Below are positions 4,094 through 28,118 of a stretch of DNA of 64,000 nucleotides, in pieces (within the stretch, counting starts at the first letter, position 1; each line of letters begins with the position of its first letter). Source of the stretch: Candidatus Binatia bacterium (GTDB taxonomy: Bacteria > Desulfobacterota > Binatia > UBA12015); contig JAQWRY010000086.1 of assembly GCA_029243485.1 (NCBI GenBank), positions 434,001-498,000 on the forward strand, given 5' to 3'. Position numbers and translations under genes: made by a program. Under the pieces are notes generated by a model. That model did not search any database. It was given only the letters and a program-made list of their open reading frames with translations, and was not told the origin of the DNA.

Positions 4094-4109
4094 GACTGAC
4101 GTTTCAGTC
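4094..4109. promoter_or_regulatory. inverted repeat in divergent intergenic region
   Basis: GACTGA and its exact reverse complement TCAGTC are separated by CGTT. The site is directly between the amidotransferase gene (leftward) and the STT3-like gene (rightward). Its size and symmetry fit a dimeric repressor operator. Binding is inferred. The site also argues that the STT3-like protein starts downstream of 4092. Confidence 0.4.
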
Positions 4110-4145
4110 TATAGGGTGATCGACCGACTTTCACGAAGGAGGGGG

Positions 4146-12507: not shown

Positions 12508-13344
12508 TCAATCGGTCTCGAGGACCCACGAGGTGACCTGGGCCGGTTCCGCTCGGCCCTCGACCAGCATGAGTTGCTGGTCGGCCCCGAGGTCGGTGAG
12601 GCGCGTGATCCGGCCCGACGGCCAGCGGATCTCCAGCGTGTCGATCGTCTCGGCGTTCGCGAGGCCGAAATGCTGCACTAGCGACGAGGCCGACAGGTAG
12701 CTCGAGCCGGTGTGGACCTCGCGCACCTGGCGCTTGCCGCCCGCTTCGAGAGTGAGCCGGGCACCGACGGCGTCGCGGTTGCTCTTCGTTCCGACGAGCT
12801 TGATTTCGAGCCAGTGCTCGGGCCCGCCGAGGTTCCGCAGCAGCTGGGCCGGCTGTGCGTAGTTGCGCAGGATGATGTCGACGTAGCCGTCCTGGTCGTA
12901 GTCCGCGACGATGGGCATGCTGGACCAGGTCGTAGGTTCGATGCCGATGATCTCGGTCTGGCCGACGAAAGTTCCGCATCCCTCGTTGCGGTAGAAGCGT
13001 TGCCCGAGCAGGCCGGAGATCCAAAGGTCCGGGTCTCCGTCGTTCTCGGCATCGAAGAAGACGAGGCCGGATCCGGAGATGGGAAGCTCGGGCGGGAGAC
13101 CGCTGTCGTCGTTGGCCGGGACGAAGGATCCGTCTGCGGCATTTCGGTAGAGCGTGATGTGGTTCGTGTTGAGAAGGGCGACGTCCTCGAAGCCGTCGCA
13201 GTCGTAGTCGGCGACCGCGGACCCGGAGGAAGCGGCCATCTCGCCGATCAGCCGGAACCGGGGCGAGCCGGACAGGTCATGGACGTCGCTCAAGCCGGCC
13301 ATCTCGGTCACGACCGCGAAGCGTGGCTCCGATGACTCGATCAT
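12508..13344 (-). CDS. FG-GAP/VCBS repeat and ASPIC/UnbV domain protein (C-terminal part of a split gene)
   Basis: 278 residues with FG-GAP-like calcium-loop repeats (ADYDCDGFEDVALL, DAENDGDPDLWI and ADYDQDGYVDIIL), which build a beta-propeller. An ASPIC/UnbV domain follows (WLEIKLVGTKSNRDAVGARL, GSSYLSASS, LEIRWPSG). Such proteins are normally exported, yet this frame has no signal peptide and only a weak ribosome site. The lipoprotein frame just upstream (13366-13677) is in the same reading frame, separated only by a TGA and seven codons. I therefore read the two as one gene broken by a nonsense change, or read through. The function is unknown. Confidence 0.8.
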   Translation of the reverse strand: MIESSEPRFAVVTEMAGLSDVHDLSGSPRFRLIGEMAASSGSAVADYDCDGFEDVALLNTNHITLYRNAADGSFVPANDDSGLPPELPISGSGLVFFDAENDGDPDLWISGLLGQRFYRNEGCGTFVGQTEIIGIEPTTWSSMPIVADYDQDGYVDIILRNYAQPAQLLRNLGGPEHWLEIKLVGTKSNRDAVGARLTLEAGGKRQVREVHTGSSYLSASSLVQHFGLANAETIDTLEIRWPSGRITRLTDLGADQQLMLVEGRAEPAQVTSWVLETD

Positions 13345-13365: not shown

Positions 13366-13677
13366 TCAAGTGACGACCCACTCGCCCCCGCTTTTCTCCC
13401 AGCGAACTCGCGTCTCGCTGAAGTCTCCCGAGATGTCGGCGGGGGGCGACCAGATGATGCCGTCGCCGGTTTCGACGTCGTAGTTCTTGAGGATCGCGTC
13501 GACGTCGCGCGATTTGATGTCGCCGGGGAGGTGGCGGTGGATCGCGGAGTTGATCGGGTCGATCTCGGCCTTGCGCGTCTTCTCCCATTGCTCGACGGAC
13601 GCCAAGCAGCCACTGAGCAGAGCAAGCGCGACCAGGCTCGAGAGTCCACGAAGCGGAAACGAACAGCGGTTCATCAT
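13366..13677 (-). CDS. lipoprotein with truncated NTF2-like domain (N-terminal part of a split gene)
   Basis: 103 residues. A signal peptide with lipobox ALLSGC and lipidation Cys24 is followed by an NTF2/SnoaL-like segment (IHRHLPGDIKSRDVDAILKNY and VRWEKSGGEWVV). The final beta strand of such a domain would continue past the TGA at 13366-13368. The codons after the stop read ETIEAREMIESSEPRF and run straight into the FG-GAP frame. A CGA-to-TGA change would explain the stop. Its ATG is just behind the ketosynthase-like gene end (13677). Confidence 0.7.
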   Translation of the reverse strand: MMNRCSFPLRGLSSLVALALLSGCLASVEQWEKTRKAEIDPINSAIHRHLPGDIKSRDVDAILKNYDVETGDGIIWSPPADISGDFSETRVRWEKSGGEWVVT

Positions 13678-14882
13678 CAGGGCGAAGCCAACACGTCAAT
13701 CGCGACAGGCACGAGGACGCCACTGCGCCCGCTGCCGGGGATCAGGATGCGCGAGGGGGCGCCCGAGTCGGCCAGCGCGCCGGGAAGAGAGCCGTGCCCG
13801 ACGGCGAGGGACGCCAGGGCGACCGAGAGCATGCCCCGTGAGGGCCAGTCTCCGACCAGCCCGTCGAGGCGCCTGTAGGTCGGCGGTGTCGGCTGCGTGC
13901 GCTCCAACGCGGAGAGTAGGCAGCGATCGAGCTCGTCCCGCGGCGGGGATCCGTTGGCGCCGCCGAGCACGGCCGAAACCGGGGGGGACGACTGGCCGCG
14001 TGTTTCGAGCATCCGGGTGAGCCGCGCGGCGGCTGCCTGGGGTTCCGGTGCGGCGTAGGGTCCGGCCGCGATGGCCCCGCTTCGCGCCACGCCGACCGCG
14101 GCGTACGGAGCGCGCCCACGGGCCCGGGCAGCGTCTTCGTACTCGAGGACGACCGCGGCTGCGCCTTCGCCGGGTACGATCCGACCCCGGACGGCGTCTT
14201 CTCGCGCGGCCACGGCCGAACTCGCCCCGTCGAGCAGGCGACGCTCACGAAGCGCCCCGAGATAGACCGACCCGAACTCGTCCGCTCCGCCCACGACGAC
14301 CCGGTCGCACATGCCGGCCCGGAGAAGATCGACCGCAGTCGCGACGGCGATCTCGCCCGAGGCTTCGTGTTCCGAAACGCTCAGATTCGGCCCTCGGATC
14401 GTCTGCTCGATTGCGGCGTAACCGCCGGCCGCGTTGAGCACCAGGTTCGGAAACAGGATCGGCTGCCCGGCGCCCGGTCCGTGCTGCAGCACCCGTTCCA
14501 TGTACTTCTGCGTCTCGCGCTGGTTCCCCAAGCACGACCCGATGACGAGCGCCGTGCGGACCTGGTCGTGTTCGGATTCGAGCGGGAGTGCGGCATCGGT
14601 GACCGCCTGCGTCGCGGAGGCCCCGATCATGCGGGAGCACCAGTCCATCCGGCGCAGGTGAGACGACTGGATGTGTTCCTTCGGTTGAAAGCCCCGCACG
14701 AACCCCGCACGTCCCACAGCGGGCAGGGCGACCGGGTCGACCCCGCGGGCGAGGCGGGGGTCGTCTTCGGCGAGGGTGCGGACGCCAGCCTCGTCCTTCT
14801 GCCACGCATCCCACACGGCGCTCTTGCCGGTGCCCAGAGGGCACACGAAGCCGAGACCCGTCACCACGATGGCGCCGTTCAC
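13677..14882 (-). CDS. ketosynthase-like protein lacking catalytic residues (chain-length-factor type)
   Basis: 401 residues with the thiolase-fold pattern of FabF-type enzymes (IVVTGLGFVCPLG at the start, GEGAAAVVLEYEDAARARG in the middle). The nucleophile region reads GPNLSVSEHEASGEIA with no Cys. The region normally holding NAHGTGT reads AVLGGANGSPP, and the second catalytic His motif is replaced by GDWPSRGMLSVAL. It therefore cannot condense by the normal mechanism and probably pairs with the active ketosynthase upstream, as chain length factors do. The GTG start overlaps the stop of the active ketosynthase (GTGA), indicating coupled translation. Confidence 0.85.
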   Translation of the reverse strand: MNGAIVVTGLGFVCPLGTGKSAVWDAWQKDEAGVRTLAEDDPRLARGVDPVALPAVGRAGFVRGFQPKEHIQSSHLRRMDWCSRMIGASATQAVTDAALPLESEHDQVRTALVIGSCLGNQRETQKYMERVLQHGPGAGQPILFPNLVLNAAGGYAAIEQTIRGPNLSVSEHEASGEIAVATAVDLLRAGMCDRVVVGGADEFGSVYLGALRERRLLDGASSAVAAREDAVRGRIVPGEGAAAVVLEYEDAARARGRAPYAAVGVARSGAIAAGPYAAPEPQAAAARLTRMLETRGQSSPPVSAVLGGANGSPPRDELDRCLLSALERTQPTPPTYRRLDGLVGDWPSRGMLSVALASLAVGHGSLPGALADSGAPSRILIPGSGRSGVLVPVAIDVLASP

Positions 14883-16105
14883 GGCCGCTCCAGGATCAAG
14901 CTGCAGTTGTTGCCGCCGAAGCCGTAGGAGTTGGAGGCCGCACGTCGGAACGCGAGGTCGCGCGGGGCGCCCTGGATCAGGTCGACGGTGCACTCGGGAT
15001 CGGGATTCGTGAGCCCGATCGTAGGCGGGACGAAGCCCCCGTTCATGGCGAGCACTGTGGCGATGGCTTCGACCGCGCCCGCGGCTCCGAGCAGGTGCCC
15101 GAACAGGCCTTTCGTCGACGACACGGGAAGCGCCGACGCTCGCGCTCCGAACACGGTGCGCAGAGCGCGTGCTTCGCACGCATCGTTTTGGGGCGTCCCG
15201 GTGCCGTGAGCGTTCACGTACTCGATCTCCGCCGGCGGGACCCCGGCGTCGGAGAGGGCGGTCTGCAGCGCCTGACTCGCACCGAGGCCTTCTTGGTGAG
15301 GTGCCGTCGGATGGTTGGCATCGCACGAAAGCCCGGCGCCGAGCAGCCGCGCGAGGACCGGCGCGCCCCGCTCGTTCGCGTGGTCCTCCGCTTCGAGGAC
15401 CACGGCGGCAGCGCCCTCGCCGAGAGTGAGCCCCTGCCGGTCGCGATCGAAGGGCCGGCACGGTTCCGGCGCGAGAGCTTTCAGGGCGTGGAATCCCGAG
15501 TACGTCATGCGGCACAGAGCGTCGGTGCCGCCGGCGATCACCACGTCCGCCGCGCCCGAGCGGATCCAGGCGAGTCCCATGGCGAGCGAGATCGCGCTGC
15601 TCGAGCAGGCGGTCGACGGTCCGAGGCGGGGTCCGAACGCTCCGACGGAGGACGCGATCATGCCCGTCGGCGCACCGACCGTCGACGACAGGAGCTGGGG
15701 CCGGAGACGGCCGGCCGGAGTCCCGAGTCGCCGTGTGTCGTAATAGGCCTCGGTCTCGAGCATCCCGCCGGTCGAAGTTCCGATCGACGTCCCGATCCGT
15801 TCCCGGTCCTCGGAAGACAGGTCGAGGCCGCTGCTGTCGAGTGCATGTTCGACGGCGAACAGGGCCAGACGATCGGATCGCGAACTGCGCCGACGTGCCG
15901 CCGCGCCCGCGAGGGCGGAGTCCGGAATCTCCTCGACCTCCCCCGCGATATGAACCCGCAGCCCCTCGGTCGAGAAGAGAGTCACGTCGCGGAAGCGATG
16001 GGTGTTGCCGCGCAGGGCCTGCTCGAGCGCGGCGGTGCCGAGCCCGGCGGACGTGATGGCTCCCATGCCGGTGATGACCACGCGACGCTGTGGCTCGGTG
16101 GGCAT
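14879..16105 (-). CDS. beta-ketoacyl-ACP synthase (FabF/KAS II type)
   Basis: 408 residues, full length for the family. Catalytic Cys167 is in GPSTACSSSA, one His is in VNAHGTGTPQND and the second His is in STKGLFGHLLGAAGAVEA. The glycine-rich C-terminus SNSYGFGGNNCSLIL is also present. It catalyses decarboxylative condensation of malonyl-ACP with an acyl or aryl primer. It lies 3 nt behind the ketoreductase gene and overlaps the catalytically dead partner by 4 nt, making a KR-KS-CLF-like operon. Confidence 0.95.
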   Translation of the reverse strand: MPTEPQRRVVITGMGAITSAGLGTAALEQALRGNTHRFRDVTLFSTEGLRVHIAGEVEEIPDSALAGAAARRRSSRSDRLALFAVEHALDSSGLDLSSEDRERIGTSIGTSTGGMLETEAYYDTRRLGTPAGRLRPQLLSSTVGAPTGMIASSVGAFGPRLGPSTACSSSAISLAMGLAWIRSGAADVVIAGGTDALCRMTYSGFHALKALAPEPCRPFDRDRQGLTLGEGAAAVVLEAEDHANERGAPVLARLLGAGLSCDANHPTAPHQEGLGASQALQTALSDAGVPPAEIEYVNAHGTGTPQNDACEARALRTVFGARASALPVSSTKGLFGHLLGAAGAVEAIATVLAMNGGFVPPTIGLTNPDPECTVDLIQGAPRDLAFRRAASNSYGFGGNNCSLILERP

Positions 16106-16108
16106 GTC

Positions 16109-16849
16109 TCAGCGCATGGTGAGACCGCCGTCGACTACCAGCGTGGTACCGGTCACGTAGCGGGCTCGTTCGGAGGCGAGAAACAGGATGGCATCGGCGA
16201 TCTCGTCCGGTGCGGCGAAGCGACCCGTCGGGATTCGAGCCGACTCGGCCGCGCGCGCCTCGTCGTTCAGCCCGGACACCATTTCGGTCTCGACCCAGCC
16301 GGGGCAGACGGCGTTCGCGGTGATCCCGTGGCGGGCGGACTCGGCGGCGAGTGTCTTCGTGAGAGCGAGGAGAGCACCCTTTGCGGCCGCGTAGTTCGCC
16401 GCACCCGGCTTTCCGAGGAAGGCCGCGGGGGAGACCACGTTGACGATCCGACCCCATCGGCTACCGATCATCGATCGGAGCCCGGCCCGTGCACAGTAGA
16501 AGGCGCCGTCGAGGCTCACGTCGAGGACCTCGCGCCAGGCGCTCGGTTGCAGCATCATGACGAGGGAGTCTCGCGCGACCGCTGCGTTGTTTACCAGGAT
16601 GTCGATGCCGCCCATTTCCTTCTTGAGCGTTCGGAACATCTCGTCCACGGCCTTCGGGTCCGAGACGTCGGCGAAGCACGCGAGCGCGCCGTCTACCTCG
16701 GCCTTGGCGGCCTCGAGTCCCTCGCGGGAGTGGCCCGCATTGAGCGCGACGCGCACGCCTTCCGCGGCGAGACGTTTCGCCGTGGCCAGGCCGATTCCCC
16801 GGCTCGCACCGGTGATGAGGGCTCTTTTCCCGGACAGCTCGAGATCCAT
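16109..16849 (-). CDS. 3-oxoacyl-ACP reductase (FabG-type SDR)
   Basis: 246 residues of the classical short-chain dehydrogenase fold. It has cofactor loop TGASRGIG, ILVNNAAVARDSLVMM, catalytic Ser in VNVVSPAAF and YAAAK with Tyr and Lys. The C-terminus VTGTTLVVDGGLTMR is typical of FabG. It is predicted to reduce the beta-keto group formed by the adjacent ketosynthase using NADPH. It is the first gene of the leftward operon and is divergent from the AMP ligase at 16927. The 77-nt gap between them should hold both promoters. Confidence 0.93.
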   Translation of the reverse strand: MDLELSGKRALITGASRGIGLATAKRLAAEGVRVALNAGHSREGLEAAKAEVDGALACFADVSDPKAVDEMFRTLKKEMGGIDILVNNAAVARDSLVMMLQPSAWREVLDVSLDGAFYCARAGLRSMIGSRWGRIVNVVSPAAFLGKPGAANYAAAKGALLALTKTLAAESARHGITANAVCPGWVETEMVSGLNDEARAAESARIPTGRFAAPDEIADAILFLASERARYVTGTTLVVDGGLTMR

Positions 16850-16926
16850 GACGACTCACGTCCCCGACGTTCAGGGTACGGGCAACATCCTCGCGAAAGC
16901 GTGCCGCGGGAGCAACTGGGCGGCGA

Positions 16927-18297
16927 ATGGCTGAGGCTCTCTACCGACACTTCGAAGACCGCCGCCGGGAGTCGCCGGCCGCCGAGGCCGTCCTGGACGT
17001 CGACGCGGGCCGTCGATTCACCCGTGATGGGCTGGCGGCACTGGTGGATCAGGTGGCCGGGTCGGTCCGGGCCGCGGCGTCGGAGGCCGGTGTCGTGGCC
17101 GTGCAGTCCGAGAACGCTCCGGAGCTGATTGCGGCGGTCCTCGCCGCCTGGCGTGAGAATCTCGTGCCTCTGCCCATCGATCGCGAGCGCGATGTCGCCG
17201 AGATCGAGACGCTCGCGCGGTCGCTCGGCATCGGGATGCTGCTGCGCGGGCGGGGGCTCGAGCGTCATGCCATCCCGGGCGTGCGCGCCGAGATCGCCCT
17301 CCCGACCGAAGCGGCCGTCCTGAAGCTCACATCGGGCACCACGGGGGAGCCGCGGGCCGTCGCGGTCGCCGGACCCGCGCTCGAGCTCGGAGTCTCCCAG
17401 ATCTGCTCCACGATGGGGATCAGGGCCGGGGATCGAAACCTGGTGACGGTGCCGCTCGCGCACAGCTATGCTTTCGACAACGTCCTCGGCACACTCGTCA
17501 TGCAGGGGACTCCCGCCGTGCTGGTTTCGGATCTCGTGCCGCGGCGCCTCTTCTCGGTCGTGCGCGAGACCGGCGTCACGGTGTGGCCGTCGGTGCCGCT
17601 CCTCCTCGATGTTCTGTCTCGGTCGCCTGCCGGTGGCGAGGCCCCGCTCGGCTCGCTTCGGCTCGTGATCTCCGCGGGAGCGCCGCTTCCCGCGACGACG
17701 CGCGAGAATTTCGCGAAGCGCTTTCATCTGCGACCCCGCACGTTCTACGGCGCCACGGAGTGCGGCGGTATCGCTTTTGACCGGGAGGCCGACCGGGAGG
17801 TGCCCGACGGCTGCGTGGGTCGACCGCTCGACGGCGTTTCGATCGACTTGCTCGACGGCGAGGACGGCGTGGGGAGGATCTCCGTTCGAAGTGGCTCCGT
17901 CGCGCTCGGGACGCTTCCTACGGCGAGTCCCGAGATCTCGGCTGGCCGGCTTCTCGCTTCGGACCTCGGTCGTCTTGATGAAGAAGGTCGGCTGCATCTC
18001 ATCGGGCGGGTCGGTCAGTTCGTGAAGATCCACGGCCACAAGGTCTACCCGATAGAAGTCGAGCGCGTCCTGCGGGGCCTTCCGGGTGTCCTGGATGCCG
18101 CCGTCGTTCCGTACGCTCGGTCCGACGTTAGTGAAGGCCTGCGAGCGATCGTCGCGGCGGGAGACGGGATCGACCGGGCCACGATCGCGCGTGGGTGCGA
18201 ACGCGTATTGCCGTCGTACAAGGTCCCGCGCTCGATCGAGATTCGCGACGAGGTCCCGCGGAACGAGCGGGGCAAACTCGATCGCCGCCGGCTCTAG
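16927..18297 (+). CDS. AMP-dependent acyl/aryl ligase of the polyene-like cluster
   Basis: 456 residues of the ANL superfamily. Motifs are LKLTSGTTGEPRAVAVA, the aromatic/adenine motif FYGATECGGIAFD, the hinge Asp in LLASDLGRLDEEGRLHLIGR, and catalytic Lys in RNERGKLDRRRL at the very end. It is slightly short in the N-terminal domain. By position it should activate the starter acid for loading on the ACP at 21726, as the AMP ligase of aryl polyene clusters does. That substrate assignment is an inference. Its stop is 18 nt from the convergent flavoprotein gene. Confidence 0.9.
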   Translation: MAEALYRHFEDRRRESPAAEAVLDVDAGRRFTRDGLAALVDQVAGSVRAAASEAGVVAVQSENAPELIAAVLAAWRENLVPLPIDRERDVAEIETLARSLGIGMLLRGRGLERHAIPGVRAEIALPTEAAVLKLTSGTTGEPRAVAVAGPALELGVSQICSTMGIRAGDRNLVTVPLAHSYAFDNVLGTLVMQGTPAVLVSDLVPRRLFSVVRETGVTVWPSVPLLLDVLSRSPAGGEAPLGSLRLVISAGAPLPATTRENFAKRFHLRPRTFYGATECGGIAFDREADREVPDGCVGRPLDGVSIDLLDGEDGVGRISVRSGSVALGTLPTASPEISAGRLLASDLGRLDEEGRLHLIGRVGQFVKIHGHKVYPIEVERVLRGLPGVLDAAVVPYARSDVSEGLRAIVAAGDGIDRATIARGCERVLPSYKVPRSIEIRDEVPRNERGKLDRRRL

Positions 18298-18314
18298 TGC
18301 GGCGTACGAGATAG

Positions 18315-19586
18315 TCAATTATCGAAAACAGATCCGATCACGAGCCGCGGCTGGAGATCGAATCGGCGATGCAGGTACTGGAGCGTCTCGAAGAGCCACA
18401 CACGCGCGCGAAGGCCGAGAGTGCCTGGCCCCATCCCGGCAAACACGCTGTTCAGCGCGGGTACGAGGCTCCGGAAGATCGCCGCGCCGGACGGTTGGAG
18501 CAGCAGGTCGATGAACTCCGGTGTGTAGAAGGAGTCGATTAGCCGCCAGTAGTAGAGGTTCGCTTTCGCTTGCCGGGCAGCCCACTCCGCCAGGATCGCA
18601 TCGGCGGCGGTGGGTCGCGCGAGACTGTGGTCGAGTGCGGCGGCGGCGGACTCCCCGCCCTGCAGGGCCAGGAAGACGCCCGTCGAGAAGACGGGGTCGA
18701 GAAAGCCCAGGGCATCGCCGATCAGGACTGCGCCGTCGCGCGCCGCCGTACCGCTCCGGTAGGAGTAGTTGCTCGTCACGTGGATGGGCGAGACGCGTTC
18801 GGCGTCGCGTGTCTTTTCCGCGAGGGCCGGTGTGTGGCGCAGGGCGTATTCGAACGCTTCTTCGGGTGTTCTTTCGAACCGGCGAAGTGCGTCGCCTTGC
18901 ACGACGAGTCCGATGCTCGTCCGCCCGTCGGCGAGCGGAATCAACCAGAGCCAGCCATCGGTTCGCACCGCCAGCAAGATGTCGCCGGACTCTGCGCCCG
19001 AGACCCGGGGGACGCCCTCGAAGTGCGCGTAGATGGCTGCTCGCTGGTGGCCGGGGGCCATCACCTTCGTACCGCGCGCTCGCGCGAGGAAGGTATCCCG
19101 GCCACTCGCGTCTACGAGGTGCTTCGCCCGGAACTCGTGCTCTCGGTCCGCGGTTCGCGCGTGAACGGACCACCCATGATCCGTCCGCTCGGCTCGCGCG
19201 ACCTCGTGTTCCTGCCTTACTTCGGCGCCGGCGCTCGCACAGGCACGCAGGAGAATGTCGTCGAACGTTGCCCGCACGACCTGGAACGCACTGGGAGCCG
19301 AGGGGACGAGGCCTTCGTCGAACCGGATTCGGACGGACGGGGTGCCGGTGGCCGTCAGCACGCGTGCGCCGAATTTGGGCACGCTCCCGGAGGCCTCCAC
19401 TTCGGCGCGTACCCCGAGGCGTTCGAGCAGCGGCATGCTGGCCGGCAGCAGGGATTCGCCGATGTGGAACCGGGGGAAGCGCTCGCGCTCCAACACGATC
19501 ACGTCTCGGCCGGCTCGCGCCAAGAGGTGTCCGGCCGTCGACCCGGCCGGGCCGCCTCCGATCACCAGCACGTCACACGTTCGCAT
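18315..19586 (-). CDS. FAD-dependent oxidoreductase, flavin-halogenase-like
   Basis: 423 residues. The N-terminal FAD fold is VLVIGGGPAGSTAGHLLARAG. FPRFHIGESLLP follows, which is typical of the tryptophan-halogenase-like group. A WxWxIP signature is present as GWLWLIPL. The second FAD motif is VLIGDALGFLDPVFSTGV. WxWxIP is the halogenase hallmark, but non-halogenating relatives also carry it, so halogenation is possible rather than shown. Similar flavoproteins occur in aryl polyene, flexirubin and dialkylresorcinol clusters. No flavin reductase is adjacent. It is divergent from the diiron protein gene. Confidence 0.85.
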   Translation of the reverse strand: MRTCDVLVIGGGPAGSTAGHLLARAGRDVIVLERERFPRFHIGESLLPASMPLLERLGVRAEVEASGSVPKFGARVLTATGTPSVRIRFDEGLVPSAPSAFQVVRATFDDILLRACASAGAEVRQEHEVARAERTDHGWSVHARTADREHEFRAKHLVDASGRDTFLARARGTKVMAPGHQRAAIYAHFEGVPRVSGAESGDILLAVRTDGWLWLIPLADGRTSIGLVVQGDALRRFERTPEEAFEYALRHTPALAEKTRDAERVSPIHVTSNYSYRSGTAARDGAVLIGDALGFLDPVFSTGVFLALQGGESAAAALDHSLARPTAADAILAEWAARQAKANLYYWRLIDSFYTPEFIDLLLQPSGAAIFRSLVPALNSVFAGMGPGTLGLRARVWLFETLQYLHRRFDLQPRLVIGSVFDN

Positions 19587-19683
19587 GGCTCCCAGAGCCC
19601 TACCGACCTCGGCGCCACATTGGAACCGGGCGCCTGTCGTTCATTCTTCCCTTTTCAGAGTCGTCGTGATTGGTTTCCCGCAC

Positions 19684-20613
19684 ATGGCCGAGGACAGCAG
19701 GCAGGCGGCCGAAGCCCCGCGGCCGGAACCGTTCACGTGGCGTCTTCCGAACGCGCCGGTGGACGCCGAAGACGACTGGGTTCTGTACGATCAGTTCATC
19801 GATCTGGCGGAGGCCCACCGGTGGAAGATGTCCGACGTGCGCCGAGAGATCGAAGGCGTCGATCCAGCGACGTTGACGGAAGCCGATCACAAGATCGTCG
19901 ACTGCATCGGTGAGATCGCGATCGTCGCAGGGAATGCTCCGACGATCGTCGTGAACCAACTCTCGGTCATGCTCTTCGATGCCGAGTTCGCCGCGTGGGC
20001 GACGTATCAGGTGGGCGAAGAGTCCAAGCACTTCCACGTGGTGCGTCACTATTGCCGTCACGTCGGCCACGCCATGTCGGCCGAGCACACCGAAGCGAAC
20101 GTGGTGCGGAAGCAGAAGGATTTCGACCCCGACGAGTACCACGACGAGCATTGGGTGACGCTCGTGAACCTGCTGGGTGAAACGCTGAACATCCATCTGT
20201 ACCAGCAGCTCTCGAAGGCCGCCGACGAGCCGGTTCTGAAGGAGCTTCTGCATCGCATCTCGCTCGACGAACGGCGCCACCAGCAGTGGTTCGTCGCGTA
20301 CTTCAAGAAGCGCGCACAGGCGGAGGACGCCTACGTGGGGCGGGCTCTCGCGGCGCTACGCGTGATGCTGGGGATCGACGAGCCACCGGACCGCAACGCG
20401 CAGCGGCACCAGGGAACCGGCTCGGTCAACTATCTGCAGGCAACAGAGAAGGTGCTGCGGCACGGGTTCTCGGTGCCCATCATCGCGCGCACCGTGCGCG
20501 AGCAATGGCAGATTCTCGAGAGCATTTTCGGAGACCGGCTCGACATCGACAAGCGCGAATTCATCTCGCGGCAGACCGCGAGCGCGAGCATGGTCGAACG
20601 ACAACTTGGTTGA
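19684..20613 (+). CDS. ferritin-like diiron oxygenase/desaturase family protein
   Basis: 309 residues, helical, with carboxylate-bridged diiron motifs: EESKHFHVVRHY (ExxH) and DERRHQQWFVAYF (DExRH), plus further Glu in GETLNIHLYQQL. The spacing resembles acyl-ACP desaturases and AurF-type N-oxygenases, and I cannot choose between them. Acting on an ACP-bound chain would fit the neighbouring genes. The frame is open far upstream (to 19255) antisense to the flavoprotein. The ATG at 19684 is preferred because the recognisable protein begins there. Confidence 0.82.
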   Translation: MAEDSRQAAEAPRPEPFTWRLPNAPVDAEDDWVLYDQFIDLAEAHRWKMSDVRREIEGVDPATLTEADHKIVDCIGEIAIVAGNAPTIVVNQLSVMLFDAEFAAWATYQVGEESKHFHVVRHYCRHVGHAMSAEHTEANVVRKQKDFDPDEYHDEHWVTLVNLLGETLNIHLYQQLSKAADEPVLKELLHRISLDERRHQQWFVAYFKKRAQAEDAYVGRALAALRVMLGIDEPPDRNAQRHQGTGSVNYLQATEKVLRHGFSVPIIARTVREQWQILESIFGDRLDIDKREFISRQTASASMVERQLG

Positions 20614-20653
20614 GCGCATCGTAGATCGCGCGCTCGCAAGCTAACGTCTTCCC

Positions 20654-21673
20654 ATGGCTCACGAGGTCGTACTCATTCCCGGTGATGGCATCGGACCCGA
20701 AGTTGCCGAAGCCGTCTGCGCCGTGCTCGATAAAGCGGCAGCGCCCATTACTTGGGCGATTCATCTCGCCGGCATTGCTGCGCTCGACGACTGCGGTGAG
20801 GTGCTGCCTGAGTCGACGTTGGACGCGATCCGACGCACGGGCGTGGGTCTGAAAGGCCCGTGTACGACGCCCGTGGGAGAGGGCTTCGCGTCGGTGAACG
20901 TGAAGCTACGCAAGGCGCTGGACCTCTACGCGGCGGTTCGGCCGGTGCGGAACCTGCCGGGTGTCGGGAGTCGTTACTCGGATGTCGACCTCGTGGTCGT
21001 TCGCGAGAACACCGAAGGGCTTTACAGCGGTGTCGAGAACGAGATCACACAGGGCGTCGTCACGAGCCTCAAGGTGGCGACCGACGCGGCGTGCATTCGG
21101 ATTGCTCGCTGGGCGTTCCACTACGCTCGAAGCCGTGGGCGGAAGAAGGTCACGGTCTTCCACAAGGCCAACATCATGAAGATGACCGATGGTCTGTTTC
21201 TGCGCTCGGCGAAGAACGTCCACGAATCCGACTTCAGCGAGATCGAGTACGAGTCCGTCATCATCGACGCCGGCTGCATGAAGATGGTGCAGGACCCGAC
21301 GCAATTCGACGTGCTCCTCATGGAGAACCTCTACGGCGACGTCGTGAGCGATCTCTGCGCGGGACTCGTCGGGGGCCTCGGCGTCGTTCCCGGCGCGAAC
21401 CTCGGAAACGAGCGCGCCGTGTTCGAGGCCGTCCACGGGTCGGCTCCGGACATCGCCGGCAAGGGTCTCGCGAACCCGCTCGCACTCCTGATGTCTGCCG
21501 TCATGATGCTGAACCATCTCGCGGAAACCCGCTCCGACGAGGCGTGTCGAGAGAGCGCGGCTCGGATCAAGACGGCGTACGACCAGGCGCTCGGAGCCGG
21601 CGCGCAGACTCGGGATATCGGCGGAGGGCTCGGCACCAAGGAGTTCACGGCCGCCCTCCTCGAGCGCCTGTAG
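20654..21673 (+). CDS. isocitrate/isopropylmalate-family dehydrogenase
   Basis: 339 residues of the beta-decarboxylating dehydrogenase family. It has LIPGDGIGPEVAEAV at the N-terminus, the substrate loop RENTEGLYSGVEN, Lys and Asn in VFHKANIMKMTDGLF, the metal-binding Asp region LLMENLYGDVVSDL, and GSAPDIAGKGLANP. The pattern is closest to NAD-dependent isocitrate or homoisocitrate dehydrogenases. It probably oxidatively decarboxylates a (homo)isocitrate-like acid. Its presence between the diiron protein and the ACP is unusual for a polyene-type cluster. It could be a neighbour of general metabolism. Confidence 0.9.
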   Translation: MAHEVVLIPGDGIGPEVAEAVCAVLDKAAAPITWAIHLAGIAALDDCGEVLPESTLDAIRRTGVGLKGPCTTPVGEGFASVNVKLRKALDLYAAVRPVRNLPGVGSRYSDVDLVVVRENTEGLYSGVENEITQGVVTSLKVATDAACIRIARWAFHYARSRGRKKVTVFHKANIMKMTDGLFLRSAKNVHESDFSEIEYESVIIDAGCMKMVQDPTQFDVLLMENLYGDVVSDLCAGLVGGLGVVPGANLGNERAVFEAVHGSAPDIAGKGLANPLALLMSAVMMLNHLAETRSDEACRESAARIKTAYDQALGAGAQTRDIGGGLGTKEFTAALLERL

Positions 21674-21725
21674 AGCGTGGTTGTTTCGAGGTCCGCGCGC
21701 GGGTAAAACCGCAGCCGGTCGAACC

Positions 21726-21995
21726 ATGACGAGAGCTGAAATCGCGAAACGCGCCAAGGAGATTCTGGTCGAAGGGCTGCGCCTAGAGATCGAGCCCGAG
21801 AGTATCGTGAATTCCGAGGGGATCTTCGGCGAGGGCCTCGGCCTGGACTCGATCGACGCACTCGAATTCGTCGTGTTGATCGAAGAAGAGTTCGAGGTTG
21901 CCATTCCCGACGAGGAGGTGGCTCGCGTCGCTTTCGCGTCGATCGACGCCCTCACCGACTTCATCGAGCTCGAGCGCCGCGCCGCGGCCAGCTGA
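21726..21995 (+). CDS. acyl carrier protein
   Basis: An acidic four-helix protein of 89 residues. Phosphopantetheine would attach to Ser42 in GLGLDSIDALEFVV. FEVAIPDEE and FASIDALTDFI complete the fold. I place the start at ATG 21726 (MTRAEIAKRAKE); an in-frame upstream ATG at 21681 would add a non-homologous leader. It carries the growing chain for the ketosynthase and reductase of the cluster and opens a tight rightward operon with the LolA-like, lipoprotein, MMPL and flippase genes. Confidence 0.93.
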   Translation: MTRAEIAKRAKEILVEGLRLEIEPESIVNSEGIFGEGLGLDSIDALEFVVLIEEEFEVAIPDEEVARVAFASIDALTDFIELERRAAAS

Positions 21996-22003
21996 CCGCA
22001 CTC

Positions 22004-22327
22004 GTGGCTCGGCTCTGCGGGGCGACGCTACTCGCCGTTGTTCTCGGAGCACTCGCCCTCCTGCCCGCGCACGCGCAGGACTCTCCGGCGCAGCAGTTGG
22101 CGGCGATCCTCGGCAAGCGCACGGGGCAAGCCCTCGACGCAAGGTTTCGCCAGACAAAGCACATCGCGCTCTTGCGAGGGCCGCTCGTGTCGCGTGGAAC
22201 CGTGCGGTTCGAGCTGCCCGACGGTCTACGCTGGGAAGTCGTCGAGCCGGAGCCTCTGGTGGTTGATACCCGCGGCGGTGTTCTCCGCGTCGGGCCCCCG
22301 GACCAGCTGCAAGAAGTGCCGGCCTAG
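22004..22327 (+). CDS. LolA-like outer membrane lipoprotein carrier, N-terminal part (ends at in-frame TAG)
   Basis: 107 residues from a GTG 9 nt behind the ACP stop. A clear signal peptide (LLAVVLGALALLPAHAQ) is followed by the LolA-type beta-sandwich start: LDARFRQTKHIALLRGPLVS, GTVRFELPDGLRWEV and LVVDTRGGVLRV. LolA proteins are about 200 residues, and this frame stops halfway at TAG (22325-22327). The remainder continues in the same frame at 22328. In aryl polyene clusters the LolA-like protein is thought to carry the product across the periplasm. A CAG-to-TAG change would restore one frame. Confidence 0.8.
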   Translation: MARLCGATLLAVVLGALALLPAHAQDSPAQQLAAILGKRTGQALDARFRQTKHIALLRGPLVSRGTVRFELPDGLRWEVVEPEPLVVDTRGGVLRVGPPDQLQEVPA

Positions 22328-22582
22328 ATGCTGGGACCGTTTGCCTCACTCCCGGGTGGATTCTCCGGCATCTTCGGGGCGAGTGCACAGGAGATCTCCG
22401 CTGCGTTCGAGGTGGTCGCCGCAGAGGGGGTGGGCGCCTTCCAGCTCACGCCGAAGGACGTGAACCTTGCCCGCGCGCTCGACGGGATCGATCTCGCGCT
22501 CGATCCGGAGTCGGGAATGCCGCGGAAGGTCGTTCTCCGCGAGGCCGGCGGCGACCGAAGCGAGATCGAGATCCTTCGCTGA
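22328..22582 (+). pseudogene. LolA-like carrier, C-terminal part after in-frame stop
   Basis: 84 codons follow the amber codon directly in the same frame. They contain the second half of the sandwich (FEVVAAEGVGAFQLTPKD, IDLALDPESGMPRKVVLREA, RSEIEILR). There is no signal peptide and no plausible ribosome site, so it is unlikely to be an independent gene. Whether the TAG is a genuine mutation, suppressed, or an assembly error cannot be decided here. Confidence 0.7.
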
Positions 22583-22628
22583 GCCTGCGCGCGCGGTCGA
22601 CTGGCGATCGGTGGACGTCGGTGACACC

Positions 22629-23417
22629 GTGATCGGCGTGTGGGTTGCCGTGCGCATCCTCGTTTTCGGGGGACTCGTCGGGCTGCTGGGGTGTGTGCCG
22701 CAGCGACCTTGGACGGGGGTGAAGCCGACCGCCCCGTGCCCCGAGGTCGTGGGGAGTGAGATCGAGCGGGTGTGCCGCGAAGATCGGGCCATCGAGACTC
22801 TGCAGGCGCGTTTTCGCGCGACCGTCGTCGTCGATGGAGAGGTGCGCAGCACCGACGGAATTCTGCTGGTCCGGCGGCCGGATGCCGTTCGAGTCAAGTT
22901 GTTCGGACTCGCGGGAATGACGGTGCATGACGCACTCTGGGTCGGTGATCGCGGCTCGGTGCGCGGTTTCATCCGCCGGCCGCTGTCGGGTGCGCCCATC
23001 ATGGTGGAGCTCGAACCGGGTGAGAATCTCTCCGAGCCCGAGGCGGAGTTTTCGCTCGCACTGTGGTCTCTCTGGCGTCCGCGCTGCTCGACGCTCCCGA
23101 CGGCGCTCGCGGCCGAGCCGGGGTGGCTTCGGCTCGATCCCCACTCCGCGCACGCGACGGCTCGTGACGTTCGTGTCGGCCCCCTCGGAGTCGATGAGGA
23201 GCGTCTGGTCCGCACGGCCGGAGACGATCCGGACGTCGTCGAGGTGCGCTACCTCGAGCGTGATTGCAGTCTCGCAGGGCTGCTCCCGGCGCGAATCGAG
23301 ATGGCGTCGCGGGCGCGGGGCTGGCGCGCGACGGTTCGCATCCTGAAGCAAGAGGAGAACGTCGCTCTCGACGATGCCTTGTTCGCGCTGCCGGCCGCGG
23401 GCGAGGACGGCTCGTGA
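22629..23417 (+). CDS. LolB-like outer membrane lipoprotein of the export system
   Basis: About 262 residues from GTG 22629 (or GTG 22638). The signal peptide has lipobox LVGLLGC with Cys22. The body has LQARFRATVVVDGEVRSTDG and RRPDAVRVKLFGLAGMTVHD, a layout close to LolB/DUF4292-type lipoproteins that accept lipophilic cargo at the outer membrane. It follows the LolA-like gene and overlaps the MMPL exporter start by GTGA. Function as acceptor for the cluster product is inferred from this order. Confidence 0.8.
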   Translation: MIGVWVAVRILVFGGLVGLLGCVPQRPWTGVKPTAPCPEVVGSEIERVCREDRAIETLQARFRATVVVDGEVRSTDGILLVRRPDAVRVKLFGLAGMTVHDALWVGDRGSVRGFIRRPLSGAPIMVELEPGENLSEPEAEFSLALWSLWRPRCSTLPTALAAEPGWLRLDPHSAHATARDVRVGPLGVDEERLVRTAGDDPDVVEVRYLERDCSLAGLLPARIEMASRARGWRATVRILKQEENVALDDALFALPAAGEDGS

Positions 23418-25939
23418 GCGAGCCTGCACCGCGCACCCTGACCTACGTGCGGTGGCTCGGGGCGCGCGCCGGTGTGGTGCTGGTCGGCTCGGTGGTCCTG
23501 GCGCTGCTCGGCGTGCTCTCCCTCTTTCGACTGGAGTTCGACGTCGGGTTGGTGTCGATGCTGCCCCGCGGTGCGGAACGCTTTGCCGACTATCAGCGCT
23601 TCGTCGAACGCTTCGGGGCGCAGGATCTGGTGATCGCGCTGGTGCGGGCTCCGGACCCGGCGACGGCGCGCACCTTCGGGACCGAGTTTGCAGCCGCCCT
23701 CGAGGAGCGACCGGAGATCGCCGACGTGCGCGCGCGCGTCGATCGCGAGGCGTTCCTGCGCGCCTTGGGCGAGGGGGCTCTGCCGCGCTTGATGCCCGCC
23801 TCCCGCCGCGGCGAACTCGAACGTCGACTTTCACCCGAGAACGTCGATGCGGCCGTCGTCGGCATGCGTAGCGCACTCTCGGTTCCCGGCGCGATCGGAC
23901 TCCGCTCGGCGCTCGTTTCGGACCCCCTCGGACTCGCAGTCGTTCTTGCGGAAGCCTTGGCGGCCTCCCGCCCCGATCGCGCGCTCGCCCCCGGCGCCGA
24001 GTCGCTCACGTCGACGGATGGCAGGAAGCTGCTGCTCCTGATCCGGCCGTTTGAGGCGGGCTACGACCTACAGGACGTGGAGCAACTGGCGCTCTCTCTC
24101 GAGGCGGCCGAGCGCGTCGCTCGAGACCGTTTCGGGAACGCCTCCGCCGTCACCGTCGACTATACGGGCGCATTCGCACACGCCCGCGAAGACGCGGCGC
24201 TGCTGCATCGCGACATCTCGCTCTACATCTTCCTTGCGTTGGTCGGTGTGCTCGCTGTGTTCTACGCGGGCTATCGGGATCTCCGGATCCTTCCCTTCGT
24301 CACCTATCACCTGAGTCTCACGACGTTGCTCACGCTGGCGCTCGGCATCGTGCTGCTCGGCAAGCTGAACCTCATCTCTCTCGCATTCGCGGCGATCTTC
24401 TACGGCCTCGGGATCGACGCCGCCATCCACTTCTATACGCGCTTCCTCGAAGAGCGGGTTGCCTGCGAGGATCCGGAGCAGGCGCTCTCGGCTACGATCG
24501 ATGCGCTTCTTCCACCGACGTTGCTCGCGACGGCGACGACGGCGATCGCCTTCGGGGCTGTCGGGTTCTCTAGCTTGGAGGGCGTGGCCCAGCTCGGCTG
24601 GCTCACCGCGATTGGCCTGCTGCTCAACGTGCCGGGCACGTTCGTCGTGATGGCGGCCCTCCTTCTCTGGTTCGAGAGGCGCGGACGGCTTGCGCGGGTG
24701 CGCGCCCCGACGCGCGCGACGTGGCTGGCCGCCGTGGCCGTCTGGGTCGCACGGCATCGCCGGGTCAGCGTGCCGGTGGTCGGAGTCCTGTTCGCACTTT
24801 CGGCCGTCTCTGCGAGGCATGCGTCGATCGACACGGATCTGTTCCACCTTCGTCCGGCAGAGTCGCGCGCGCGCTCGGTGGAGAAGGAAATTCAGCGCGA
24901 GTTCGGCTTCACGGACCCCCACGGTTCGGTTCTGGTCGAAACACGGAACATCGGGGATCCCGACGCGATCGACTCCGTAGTGCGCGTGGCGGAGATCGTG
25001 ACGGAGAGTCTTCGAGGTGCGCAGGAGGCGGGCGACGTGCGGTCCGTGACGAGCCTGGCGCCGCTCCTCCCGTCGCGCACGACGCAGCGGGAGCGCCTGG
25101 ACGCTTGGGCGGCGCTACCGCGCGAGGCTGCCGCCGATCGTCTCGAGGTGGCCCTCGATGCGGCGGGCTTTCGCACCGAGATGTTCGCCAGTGCGATACG
25201 GATGCTGCGAGAAGTCCCGGCTCCCGCGGATCCCACCTCCGAGGTGCTCCCCGGACTCGAGATCTTGATCGAGCGACAACTCGAGCGCGACGACGAGGCT
25301 CTCTCCATCCTGGTGTCGTTCACGCCTACGGATGCGGCGGCCCTCGAGCGGGTGGCCGATCGATTGGTGCGCGAGACCGTGCTGCCGCCTGGGGTTTCGT
25401 TGATCGTCACCGGTCGTCCCCTGATGGAGGCAGAATTGGGCCGGAGCGCCCGCCGCGAGTTGTTGGGCTTTCTCGGCTTTGTGCTCGCGTGCACCGTGAT
25501 TCTGATCGGCGCCCACGAGCGCCGTGTCGCCCCCACCCTCGCGCTCCTCGCGATCCCGGTGGGATCCGTCGTGGGTGTCCTCGGGCTCGCCGGGTTCTTC
25601 GGGATTCCGCTCACCCCGGTGAGCGTCGTCGTGCTGCCGCTCACCATCGGCATCGGGCTGGACGATTGCCTCTATCTCGTCGAGCGGTACCGGGAGAGCG
25701 GTGACGTCGGGGAGGCGGTCGCACGCGGCGGCCGCGCTTTGTCGATCACCACGGCGACCACGATCGCGGGGTTCGGCGCCCTGGCGCTCTCGCGTTACCC
25801 CGCCCTTTCCGGACTCGGTACGCTTGCCGCGGTAAGCCTCGCCATCTGTCTCGCGACGACCATCGTTCTGCTTCCGGCGCTTCTCTCGCCCGCCTGGCTG
25901 CGACGCAGCCGCGAGGATTCGTCCGTGGTGTCTTCGTGA
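23414..25939 (+). CDS. MMPL/RND-superfamily exporter
   Basis: About 841 residues starting at the GTG that overlaps the lipoprotein stop. The RND plan is present twice: one membrane helix (VVLVGSVVLALLGVLSLF), a periplasmic domain, then five helices, and the same again from residue 440. Motifs include FAAIFYGLGIDAAIHFYTR and VLPLTIGIGLDDCLYLVERY, each with a membrane-embedded Asp typical of proton-driven transport. Family members of this type export lipids or aryl polyenes from the inner membrane. It is presumed to hand the product to the LolA/LolB-like pair. Confidence 0.93.
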   Translation: MSEPAPRTLTYVRWLGARAGVVLVGSVVLALLGVLSLFRLEFDVGLVSMLPRGAERFADYQRFVERFGAQDLVIALVRAPDPATARTFGTEFAAALEERPEIADVRARVDREAFLRALGEGALPRLMPASRRGELERRLSPENVDAAVVGMRSALSVPGAIGLRSALVSDPLGLAVVLAEALAASRPDRALAPGAESLTSTDGRKLLLLIRPFEAGYDLQDVEQLALSLEAAERVARDRFGNASAVTVDYTGAFAHAREDAALLHRDISLYIFLALVGVLAVFYAGYRDLRILPFVTYHLSLTTLLTLALGIVLLGKLNLISLAFAAIFYGLGIDAAIHFYTRFLEERVACEDPEQALSATIDALLPPTLLATATTAIAFGAVGFSSLEGVAQLGWLTAIGLLLNVPGTFVVMAALLLWFERRGRLARVRAPTRATWLAAVAVWVARHRRVSVPVVGVLFALSAVSARHASIDTDLFHLRPAESRARSVEKEIQREFGFTDPHGSVLVETRNIGDPDAIDSVVRVAEIVTESLRGAQEAGDVRSVTSLAPLLPSRTTQRERLDAWAALPREAAADRLEVALDAAGFRTEMFASAIRMLREVPAPADPTSEVLPGLEILIERQLERDDEALSILVSFTPTDAAALERVADRLVRETVLPPGVSLIVTGRPLMEAELGRSARRELLGFLGFVLACTVILIGAHERRVAPTLALLAIPVGSVVGVLGLAGFFGIPLTPVSVVVLPLTIGIGLDDCLYLVERYRESGDVGEAVARGGRALSITTATTIAGFGALALSRYPALSGLGTLAAVSLAICLATTIVLLPALLSPAWLRRSREDSSVVSS

Positions 25940-26949
25940 GCGACGATGAGCTTCGTCGCGAGCGGCGGAGTCGGATCTGGCGAAGCCTGCTTGCGATCCT
26001 CGGTCTCGTCGCCCTCTTCGCGCTCATTCGACGGGCTGGTGCGGAGAACGTCTGGGATACGCTGGCCGGTGTTCGACCGGGGTGGTTGGCGGTCTGGCTC
26101 TTCGTCGAGGGTGTCATCTTCGTCGGCTTCGCCCTGCGGTGGCGGATGCTGTTGCGCAGCCTCGGCGCCGAAGTTCCGCTGCCTCGGTTGATCGGCGTTC
26201 GGGTGGCCGGGTTGGCGGTCGGCACGTTGACGCCGGGTGCGAAGTTGGGCGGGGAACCCCTGCGTGCGTATCTGATCGCCCGCGACGGTGTGCCGAGCGG
26301 CCCGGCCATCGCGAGTGTCGCGGTGGACCGTTCGCTCGAGCTCGTGGCGAATCTGGTGTTCGCGGTGGCGTACTGCGCCCTGTTCGCACTGCGCGATCAG
26401 GAAACTGCGTCACGGGTCCTCATCGTCGTCGTCGTGAGTGGGATCGCCTTCGTCGTCGCGACGGGGCTCCTCGTGCGTCGGCTCAAACGCGGAGGCTCGA
26501 TCGTGCCGGCGCGGATGAGGAGCGTACTCGATCGTCTCGGCGCGTCCGAGGACGCGATTGAGCGAACCGACGAGGCCCTACGGGAATTGCTCTTCGCCCG
26601 ACCGCGCATGCTCGCCGGAGCTCTCGGCGCATCGCTTCTGCTGAACGCGATCATCCTGACCGAGTACGGCGTGTTGTTCATCGCCTTCGGAATCTGGCCG
26701 ACGCTGCCGGACCTCGCCGGCGCACTGCTCGGCGTGGGCCTGGCGCATGCCCTTCCGATTCCCGCTTCTCTCGGGGCGCTCGAAGGAGCGCAGGCGGTGG
26801 TCTTTGGTCTCGCTGACGACGATCCAAAACTTGCGATCGTCGCCGCGACTGCGGCGCGGGTCCGGGACATCGGATGGACCGTGCCCGGGGTAATCTATCT
26901 CGCCGTGACGGCGCTACGGCGGCGCGCGTCAGGTCGGAACGACGCGTAG
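25936..26949 (+). CDS. flippase-like membrane protein (LPG synthase transmembrane-domain family)
   Basis: 337 residues with about eight membrane helices. Family marks are RPGWLAVWLFVEGVIFVGFA, ALRWRMLLRSLG, the loop GTLTPGAKLGGEPLRAYLIA and IPASLGALEGAQAVV. These proteins (UPF0104/DUF4897-type) are thought to move lipids across the membrane. The GTG start overlaps the exporter stop (GTGA), so it is the last gene of the ACP-led operon. Its 3' end overlaps the convergent JAMM peptidase gene by about 21 nt. Confidence 0.88.
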   Translation: MSDDELRRERRSRIWRSLLAILGLVALFALIRRAGAENVWDTLAGVRPGWLAVWLFVEGVIFVGFALRWRMLLRSLGAEVPLPRLIGVRVAGLAVGTLTPGAKLGGEPLRAYLIARDGVPSGPAIASVAVDRSLELVANLVFAVAYCALFALRDQETASRVLIVVVVSGIAFVVATGLLVRRLKRGGSIVPARMRSVLDRLGASEDAIERTDEALRELLFARPRMLAGALGASLLLNAIILTEYGVLFIAFGIWPTLPDLAGALLGVGLAHALPIPASLGALEGAQAVVFGLADDDPKLAIVAATAARVRDIGWTVPGVIYLAVTALRRRASGRNDA

Positions 26950-27393
26950 TTCCTCGTATTCGAGGCGCTCTTCATTCCAGAGGTGTCCGGACATTCCGGT
27001 GATCGAATTGTCGTCGACGCCCACGACGATGTAGACGGCTTCGGGGTAGATCGGCTCGTCGAACATCTTGGCGCGAGCCTGGTCCTCCTTCGAGAAGTAG
27101 GCACGTCCGTTCGGGTGGGAGTGGTAGATGCAGCGGAGTTCGAAGTCCTGCGCGTCGACTTGCTCTGACACGGCGAGGAGTTCCTTCTCGTCCATGATGT
27201 AGCCGTCGCTCCCGTCTCGTGAGAACGTCTCGGGATCGGCTTTGTGCCGTGCGGTCGCTACGTTTTCGACGCGCCGAACGATTTCGACATCGTTGTCGAC
27301 GTCATAAAGGATGAATCCGCAACACTCCTCAGGGAAGGCTTCACGGGCGTGCTTCTTGACCTCGATGAAGAGGCTCTTGGCCAGATGATACAT
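26929..27393 (-). CDS. JAMM/Mov34-MPN metallopeptidase (M67-like)
   Basis: 154 residues. Zinc ligands are visible: Glu in FPEECCGFIL, and IYHSHPNGRAYFSKEDQ with the HSHP His pair and Asp in the correct spacing (HxHx7SxxD). Bacterial stand-alone JAB proteins cut isopeptide bonds, for example processing sulfur-carrier or ubiquitin-like proteins. No ubiquitin-like or thiamine/cysteine synthesis gene is adjacent, so the substrate is open. It lies upstream of nothing on its own strand and downstream of thrH (gap of 56 nt), with which it may be co-transcribed. Confidence 0.9.
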   Translation of the reverse strand: MYHLAKSLFIEVKKHAREAFPEECCGFILYDVDNDVEIVRRVENVATARHKADPETFSRDGSDGYIMDEKELLAVSEQVDAQDFELRCIYHSHPNGRAYFSKEDQARAKMFDEPIYPEAVYIVVGVDDNSITGMSGHLWNEERLEYEELRVVPT

Positions 27394-28064: not shown

Positions 28065-28118
28065 GCGCGGACGCTACCGGAGCCTCGGTACGCCGACAAC
28101 CGATGGCGCGCCCTGCTG

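Follow-up and report, generated by a model that had tools for sequence, protein, structure and literature searches.

A NosL-type radical-SAM gene in an aryl-polyene-like ketosynthase and export cluster of a Binatia bacterium

The window analyzed here is a 64,000-nucleotide stretch, C86:434001-498000 (GenBank JAQWRY010000086.1), of the 6.5-Mb draft genome of a Candidatus Binatia bacterium (G000, 97.5% complete). It carries a gene group that we read, with a probability of roughly 0.55, as an aryl polyene (APE)-like type II polyketide and outer-membrane export cluster whose aryl starter would be made by a NosL-type radical S-adenosylmethionine (radical-SAM) tryptophan lyase. An earlier note on this DNA had described an APE-like cluster beginning at 13677 and had seen no starter-forming enzyme; the NosL-type gene was found just outside those coordinates, in the ketosynthase (KS) operon itself, and is the new element. 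At odds slightly below even, the class may hold a whole family of such type II clusters, primed with an indole carboxylate by a NosL-type lyase and making indole-headed, possibly halogenated, outer-membrane lipids. The gene content, the kinship of the first ketosynthase (KS1) with ApeO, the inactive second one (KS2), the NosL clade and the linkage across the class were read from sequence.

A minus-strand operon runs from 16849 to 11304 and encodes a ketoreductase (KR), KS1, KS2, a small lipoprotein, an FG-GAP/ASPIC protein and, as its final gene, the radical-SAM enzyme, with gaps of 3, -1, -1, 21 and 37 bp between consecutive genes. To its right lie a plus-strand AMP (adenosine monophosphate) ligase gene and a minus-strand gene for a halogenase-like flavoprotein, followed by a plus-strand series (diiron, isocitrate dehydrogenase (IDH)-family, acyl carrier protein (ACP), LolA-like, LolB-like, MMPL and flippase-like) that ends at 26949. 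Every gene named in the earlier note was found within 13677-26949. Its left boundary was too short, as the KS operon continues to 11304 through the lipoprotein, FG-GAP/ASPIC and NosL-like genes, and its list lacked the IDH-family gene at 20654-21673, between the diiron and ACP genes, as well as the in-frame stop of the LolA-like gene. The features are as follows.

9786-11282, plus strand: benzoate-CoA-ligase-like AMP ligase, probable member (PF00501; TIGR02262 208 bits, cut-off 375)
11304-12470, minus strand: NosL-type radical-SAM enzyme (3-methyl-2-indolic acid synthase family), proposed starter maker (TIGR04158, PDB NosL, tree)
12508-13344, minus strand: FG-GAP/ASPIC-UnbV protein, optional (PF07593, PF13517)
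13366-13677, minus strand: small lipoprotein, optional (lipobox-like signal)
13677-14879, minus strand: KS2, ketosynthase-like partner in the chain-length-factor position (fabF model 123 bits only)
14879-16105, minus strand: KS1, ketosynthase with Cys-His-His (PF00109/PF02801)
16109-16849, minus strand: FabG-type KR (PF13561; PRK12826 subfamily)
16927-18297, plus strand: AMP-forming acyl ligase, ApeH-like role proposed (PF00501, PF13193)
18315-19586, minus strand: flavin adenine dinucleotide (FAD) halogenase-like protein, optional (PF04820)
19684-20613, plus strand: ferritin-like diiron protein, distant acyl-ACP-desaturase relative, optional (EExxH, DExxH)
20654-21673, plus strand: NAD-isocitrate-dehydrogenase-family protein (PF00180; PRK08997 403 bits, cut-off 510)
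21726-21995, plus strand: ACP with GLDSID phosphopantetheine site (PF00550)
22004-22582, plus strand: LolA-like periplasmic carrier, in-frame TAG at 22325-22327 (the G001 copy matches PF03548)
22638-23417, plus strand: LolB-fold lipoprotein by model, start codon uncertain (AlphaFold and Foldseek)
23414-25939, plus strand: MMPL/RND exporter (PF03176)
25936-26949, plus strand: flippase-like membrane protein (PF03706; TIGR00374 passed, 90 bits, cut-off 43)

The radical-SAM protein scored 262 bits on TIGR04158 (3-methyl-2-indolic acid synthase), 144 on ThiH and 107 on HydG. Its closest solved relative is NosL (PDB 6htk/4r33, ~245 bits), and the CxxxCxxC cluster motif is present (CDAECRMC at 88). 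In a 27-row tree, 18 class rows from 16 genomes grouped with NosL, with support of 100/100, apart from eight ThiH/HydG rows, a placement that ruled out a ThiH or HydG identity. NosL and ThiH were flagged as long branches in this tree; G025 and G032 contributed two rows each, and G003, whose gene is split, was left out of it, though it is counted among the 17 positive genomes below. Passages of PMC9046217 name ThiH R306 and a one-residue insertion in beta8 as the likely primary markers of tyrosine versus tryptophan. Like NosL, all 18 class rows have Gln where ThiH has R306 and lack the insertion; the R306-type Arg and the insertion were both present in 8/8 HydG/ThiH rows. The catalytic Arg (NosL R323) was conserved in 18/18 class rows. 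The window protein has the equivalents of NosL Tyr90 and Ser340, which we take to contact the substrate, with Thr instead of Ser in some class rows. As far as clade and alignment can tell, the enzyme is of the NosL type, with tryptophan-type rather than tyrosine-type markers.

Linkage was assessed in 148 genomes of the class, coded G###, of which family f1 is a subset and G000, G001, G002 and G003 are the genus members. The radical-SAM profile was applied at E 1e-20, with a best match of at least 425 bits in each positive genome and with a 62-residue fragment match in G037 excluded. The KS1 threshold of 473 bits (next match 420) was chosen after the match list had been inspected, and at most 12 first-look candidates per genome were scored for either count. 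The radical-SAM enzyme was found in 17 genomes and a KS1-type ketosynthase in 26: both occurred in 16, the radical-SAM enzyme only in one (G015, 74% complete), KS1 only in 10, and neither in 121. KS1 was present in 16/17 genomes with the radical-SAM enzyme versus 10/131 without it (Fisher p 7.7e-14, uncorrected for shared ancestry), and the two genes shared a contig in 11 of the 17, lying 1.2 to 20.6 kb apart.

A ligase gene lay no more than 300 bp from the radical-SAM gene in 10/17 genomes, as the NosL-NosI-NosJ logic set out in passages of PMC5585349 would want. This ligase is benzoate-CoA-ligase-like in G000-G003 and PaaK-like in G015, G020, G025, G032, G045 and G088. A flippase-like gene stood within ~1.4 kb in 9/17. 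The fullest set together was that of G088, with KR, ACP, KS1, KS2, an ApeP-like dehydratase, LolA, LolB, MMPL, ligase, radical-SAM and flippase genes. In a survey of 395 genomes drawn from the larger phylum (at most four candidates scored per genome), radical-SAM matches outside the class reached at most 153 bits among the matches listed. The set of KR, KS1, KS2, AMP ligase, IDH, ACP, LolA, LolB and MMPL genes recurs in G003, in G001 (where a contig end truncates MMPL) and in G002 up to the limit of its contig; the gene grouping is therefore more than chance. Separately, the KS1 pair of G038 (L046), G092 (L074) and G088 (L084) has beside it another KS pair and a gene for a B12-binding radical-SAM protein.

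KS1 retains Cys-His-His in the active-site alignment, and in a 20-row tree nine class KS1 rows and E. coli ApeO fell on one side of a branch with support of 100/99, which identifies KS1 as ApeO-type; ApeO is a long branch there, and its exact place inside the KS1 group is unsure. A tree constrained to join KS1 to E. coli FabF and to the FabF-like ketosynthase that this genome encodes on contig C1 was rejected (p-AU, from the approximately unbiased test, 0.0012), so the kinship with ordinary fatty-acid FabF that had been named as a counter-case was not found. FabB was present in the tree; the constrained test covered the FabF grouping, not FabB alone. KS1 scored 323 bits on PRK09185 (cut-off 407; E. 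coli ApeO 556) and had its top score, 381, on fabF (cut-off 494), so by curated cut-offs it belongs to neither family. The catalytic Cys and both His are absent from KS2, and from every one of the eight KS2 rows that were compared (the window's among them); the "dead ketosynthase partner" of the earlier note is borne out.

Among the accessory proteins, the KR shares 33% identity with ApeQ and scored 232 bits on PRK12826, above its cut-off of 222. The best NCBIfam model of the ACP is PRK09184 (52 bits, below the cut-off of 70), which one E. coli APE ACP passes. The AMP ligase at 16927-18297 is 24% identical to E. coli ApeH and has matches of 45-100% identity in 10/148 class genomes, its own included, all of family f1. 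The G001 copy of the LolA-like gene (L039 9840-10415) is open and matches PF03548. The LolB-like protein gave an AlphaFold model of pLDDT (predicted local distance difference test) 82.6 whose best Foldseek matches are LolA/LolB structures (E 9e-9); judged by this model, it has a LolA/LolB fold. The ketoreductase, ACP, LolA and MMPL exporter of an APE cluster are thus all present. The APE-like description stands in so far as KS1 falls in the ApeO clade, the ACP has PRK09184 as its best model and the LolA/LolB/MMPL genes are there. It fails as strict membership, given the missing dehydratase, thioesterase and glycosyltransferase. From its genes, the cluster is APE-like in how it would work, not a strict APE member.

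Several observations weigh against the reading of an APE-like cluster started by a NosL-type lyase, and with most of them comes a rival explanation. The radical-SAM protein lies under the equivalog cut-off of TIGR04158 (262 vs 400 bits), as might be expected of a NosL relative with changed chemistry, using another aromatic amino acid, decarboxylating, or cleaving Calpha-Cbeta to give a methyl-arene; passages of PMC4916742 describing NosL as catalytically promiscuous fit this too. We consider such a change possible but doubtful, as the tryptophan-type markers hold in 18/18 rows and the carboxylate ligases encoded alongside hint at a carboxylic acid as the product. In G003, the radical-SAM gene (L077:9302-10442) is split over two reading frames.

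The linkage has its own gaps. The radical-SAM and KS1 genes are on different contigs in 5/17 genomes, and ten class genomes have KS1 without the radical-SAM enzyme, which means that the polyketide synthase does not need it everywhere. These ten, which include G005, G006, G008, G010, G011 (70% complete) and G012 (63% complete) of f1, are what would be seen if an ordinary APE-like pathway took 4-hydroxybenzoate or some other common aryl acid as its starter, with the radical-SAM enzyme making a separate product or decorating the polyene. The same AMP ligase is kept in f1 genomes with and without the radical-SAM gene, and 4-hydroxybenzoate is the predicted starter of the E. coli APE in passages of PMC8253772. 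Against such a common starter, the radical-SAM gene is part of the KS operon and, although gene order is rearranged, keeps its linkage to KS1 or a ligase, and a second aryl-acid-type ligase adjoins it in the four genus members; we rate this explanation as unlikely.

The dehydratase is the next difficulty. No hotdog dehydratase was found in the window cluster among six-frame open reading frames (ORFs) with two profiles, a search that ruled out a hidden one. The dehydratase, thioesterase and glycosyltransferase reported missing by the earlier note likewise went unfound in blastp and tblastn with 17 E. coli APE proteins (profiles were added for the dehydratase). The same searches gave no match of weight in the cluster for an acyltransferase or methyltransferase, and Pfam scans of the cluster ORFs matched no aromatic ammonia-lyase, agreeing with the note on that enzyme as well. 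An ApeP-like dehydratase lies near KS1 in nine genomes (G018, G020, G024, G030, G037, G039, G043, G050 and G088); six of these clusters were used to build the profile, leaving G024, G039 and G088 as independent. The profile search found none in the given loci of G038, G057 and G092, and there was none in the given f1 loci of G001, G002, G003, G005, G006, G008, G011 and G012, several of them truncated at contig ends. In G010, also of f1, a dehydratase-like ORF (L173, 39 bits) belongs to an adjoining ApeQ/ApeR-like set ~12 kb from KS1. Dehydratase presence is patchy across the KS1 clusters of the class. As a side observation, L173 groups ApeQ-like KR, ApeR-like KS, ACP, dehydratase-like and MMPL-like ORFs ~8-17 kb from KS1.

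Absence here and presence in nine related clusters would suit a product that is not a polyene, such as a beta-hydroxy or short aryl-acyl lipid made without a dehydratase of the cluster's own. Elsewhere in the genome, however, four FabA/FabZ-type matches were found, two of them in another KS locus on the same contig, and these could act in trans; a non-polyene product is possible, on the improbable side. That separate locus (L095, C86:66000-85999) holds KS, two FabA/FabZ-like, KR, KASIII-like (beta-ketoacyl-ACP synthase III) and PPTase-like (phosphopantetheinyl transferase) genes, the last two named by eye. The APE dehydratase families PF22818 and PF22817 had no match in the genome, but PF22817 matched no control either, so this negative carries no weight by itself.

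The remaining points concern single proteins. In this assembly the in-frame TAG at 22325-22327 breaks the LolA-like gene; it may be an assembly error, decay or real. Pfam gave nothing for the LolB-like protein, and blastp matched neither this protein to E. coli ApeN (DUF3261) nor KS2 to E. coli ApeC (annotated at 240 aa). The best model of the MMPL protein is HpnN (197 bits, against 45 for E. coli ApeM), which speaks against a strict APE exporter. Hopanoid kinship of the MMPL protein, foreseen as a threat in the earlier note, is partly present: HpnN is the best model, at a score far below its cut-off of 752. With fabF as the top model of KS1 and HpnN as that of the MMPL protein, housekeeping fatty-acid synthesis and hopanoid-type export genes might merely lie side by side. 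We hold this to be very improbable, given the rejected FabF grouping, the separate FabF-like gene on contig C1, the inactive KS2 partner and the conserved cluster.

The genes around the core vary. A 20-kb stretch of G003, of the same genus, has the core with no halogenase-like, diiron, small-lipoprotein or ASPIC match. The halogenase-like and diiron genes, the "extra oxidative enzymes" of the earlier note, are therefore present and optional. Aligned to PltA, ChlB4 and two further halogenases of known structure, the halogenase-like protein matches them at Lys71 and WLWLIP, so that it carries both features of an FAD-dependent halogenase, the catalytic Lys and WxWxIP. The diiron protein has only distant solved relatives (DesA2, E=2.8e-4) and a poor AlphaFold model (pLDDT 53.5); among 145 genomes, close orthologues were found in G001, G002 and G038. 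A 63% orthologue (L045:10001-10879) stands beside unrelated genes in a metagenome-assembled genome from Baikal that has no NosL-like match. Beside the diiron gene of G038 is a 735-aa histidine/phenylalanine ammonia-lyase-type protein with an ASG motif (L041:10469-12676), and a relative of it lies near the radical-SAM gene of G025 (L079).

The small lipoprotein had tblastn matches in the G001, G002, G038, G025, G032 and G045 loci. In G000, G001, G003 and G011 the IDH gene adjoins the ACP gene or lies close to it; it is the sole close copy in the genome (next 37%), so a housekeeping role is possible. Together with AmcF/AmcH/AmcB matches, the IDH gene had hinted at a 2-oxoglutarate starter of the cispentacin kind; this was set aside, as all of these fell below cut-offs. 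Promoter and terminator scans gave signal at chance level, and a KS1 scan against viral contigs gave no lead. Elsewhere in the window, a JAB-domain gene (26929-27393) overlaps the end of the flippase-like gene and adjoins it also in G005, G008 and G012; 27732-29306 encodes an SBP_bac_3 solute-binding domain fused to a type II chorismate mutase, with a 47% relative near the G005 cluster (L185); and 4092-6392 encodes an STT3/AglB-like oligosaccharyltransferase in this bacterial host.

From gene content and linkage we infer every reaction below, as well as the starter, the product and its location. The radical-SAM enzyme would turn L-tryptophan into an indole-2-carboxylate, e.g. 3-methyl-2-indolic acid, which one of the two AMP ligases would adenylate and load onto the ACP. 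KS1, working with the inactive KS2 and with the KR, would extend this starter with malonyl units; dehydration would be carried out by a hotdog dehydratase encoded elsewhere, or omitted. The halogenase-like and diiron enzymes may decorate the product, and the MMPL, LolA-like, LolB-like and flippase-like proteins would transfer it to the outer membrane. Such a pathway joins the radical-SAM tryptophan rearrangement of thiopeptide antibiotics with APE-type outer-membrane lipids, two subjects kept apart in the portions of the literature consulted on each. If it is true, NosL chemistry would serve polyketide synthesis outside thiopeptides, and a chemical class is predicted for uncultured bacteria.

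Among known systems, the E. coli CFT073 APE cluster (apeA-R) shares with the window cluster, by sequence, the ApeO-type KS, KR, ACP, acyl ligase, LolA and MMPL exporter and, by fold or active site, the LolB-like lipoprotein and inactive KS partner. The window cluster differs in being without the ApeI/ApeP dehydratase, thioesterase, glycosyltransferase, acyltransferase and methyltransferase, and in having the NosL-type radical-SAM, halogenase-like, diiron, IDH and flippase-like genes. In passages of PMC8253772, E. coli ApeH is predicted to load 4-hydroxybenzoate, a step demonstrated in vitro with the APEXd enzyme, and the chain is extended by type II enzymes. The flexirubin system is similar in the KR (FlxB, 210 bits, cut-off 340) and the G001 LolA (LolA2_flexi, 37, cut-off 125). 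Both scores are below cut-off, Pfam scans show no ammonia lyase in the window cluster, and neither an FlxA ammonia lyase nor a passing FlxB or LolA2 marks it as flexirubin; the ammonia lyase near the G038 cluster passes a histidine-ammonia-lyase subfamily model, not FlxA.

The celluxanthenes/flavoaffinins (cex) of Clostridium thermocellum are aryl polyenes with a tryptophan-derived indole, according to passages of PMC12144888 and PMC11839114. As described there, cex differs in its iterative type I polyketide synthase and in a tryptophan-derived ketoacid that is proposed to fuse to the finished polyene, with no NosL-type starter. In the open-licence literature searched, nothing was found joining NosL with an aryl polyene, NosL with a ketosynthase and indole, or indolic acid with a ketosynthase, nor, among the papers listed, any link of NosL with a type II polyketide; these Clostridium pigments were the only near cases among the papers listed. 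In nosiheptide, as passages of PMC5585349 have it, the 3-methyl-2-indolic acid formed by NosL is adenylated by NosI and carried by NosJ. The window resembles that arrangement in having a NosL-clade enzyme beside an adenylating ligase and a carrier protein in the cluster, NosI and NosJ being likened by role only; unlike in nosiheptide, the neighbours of its NosL-like gene are KS and Lol/MMPL export genes. By this analogy, the window cluster would join the first half of the nosiheptide indole route with the second half of the APE route.

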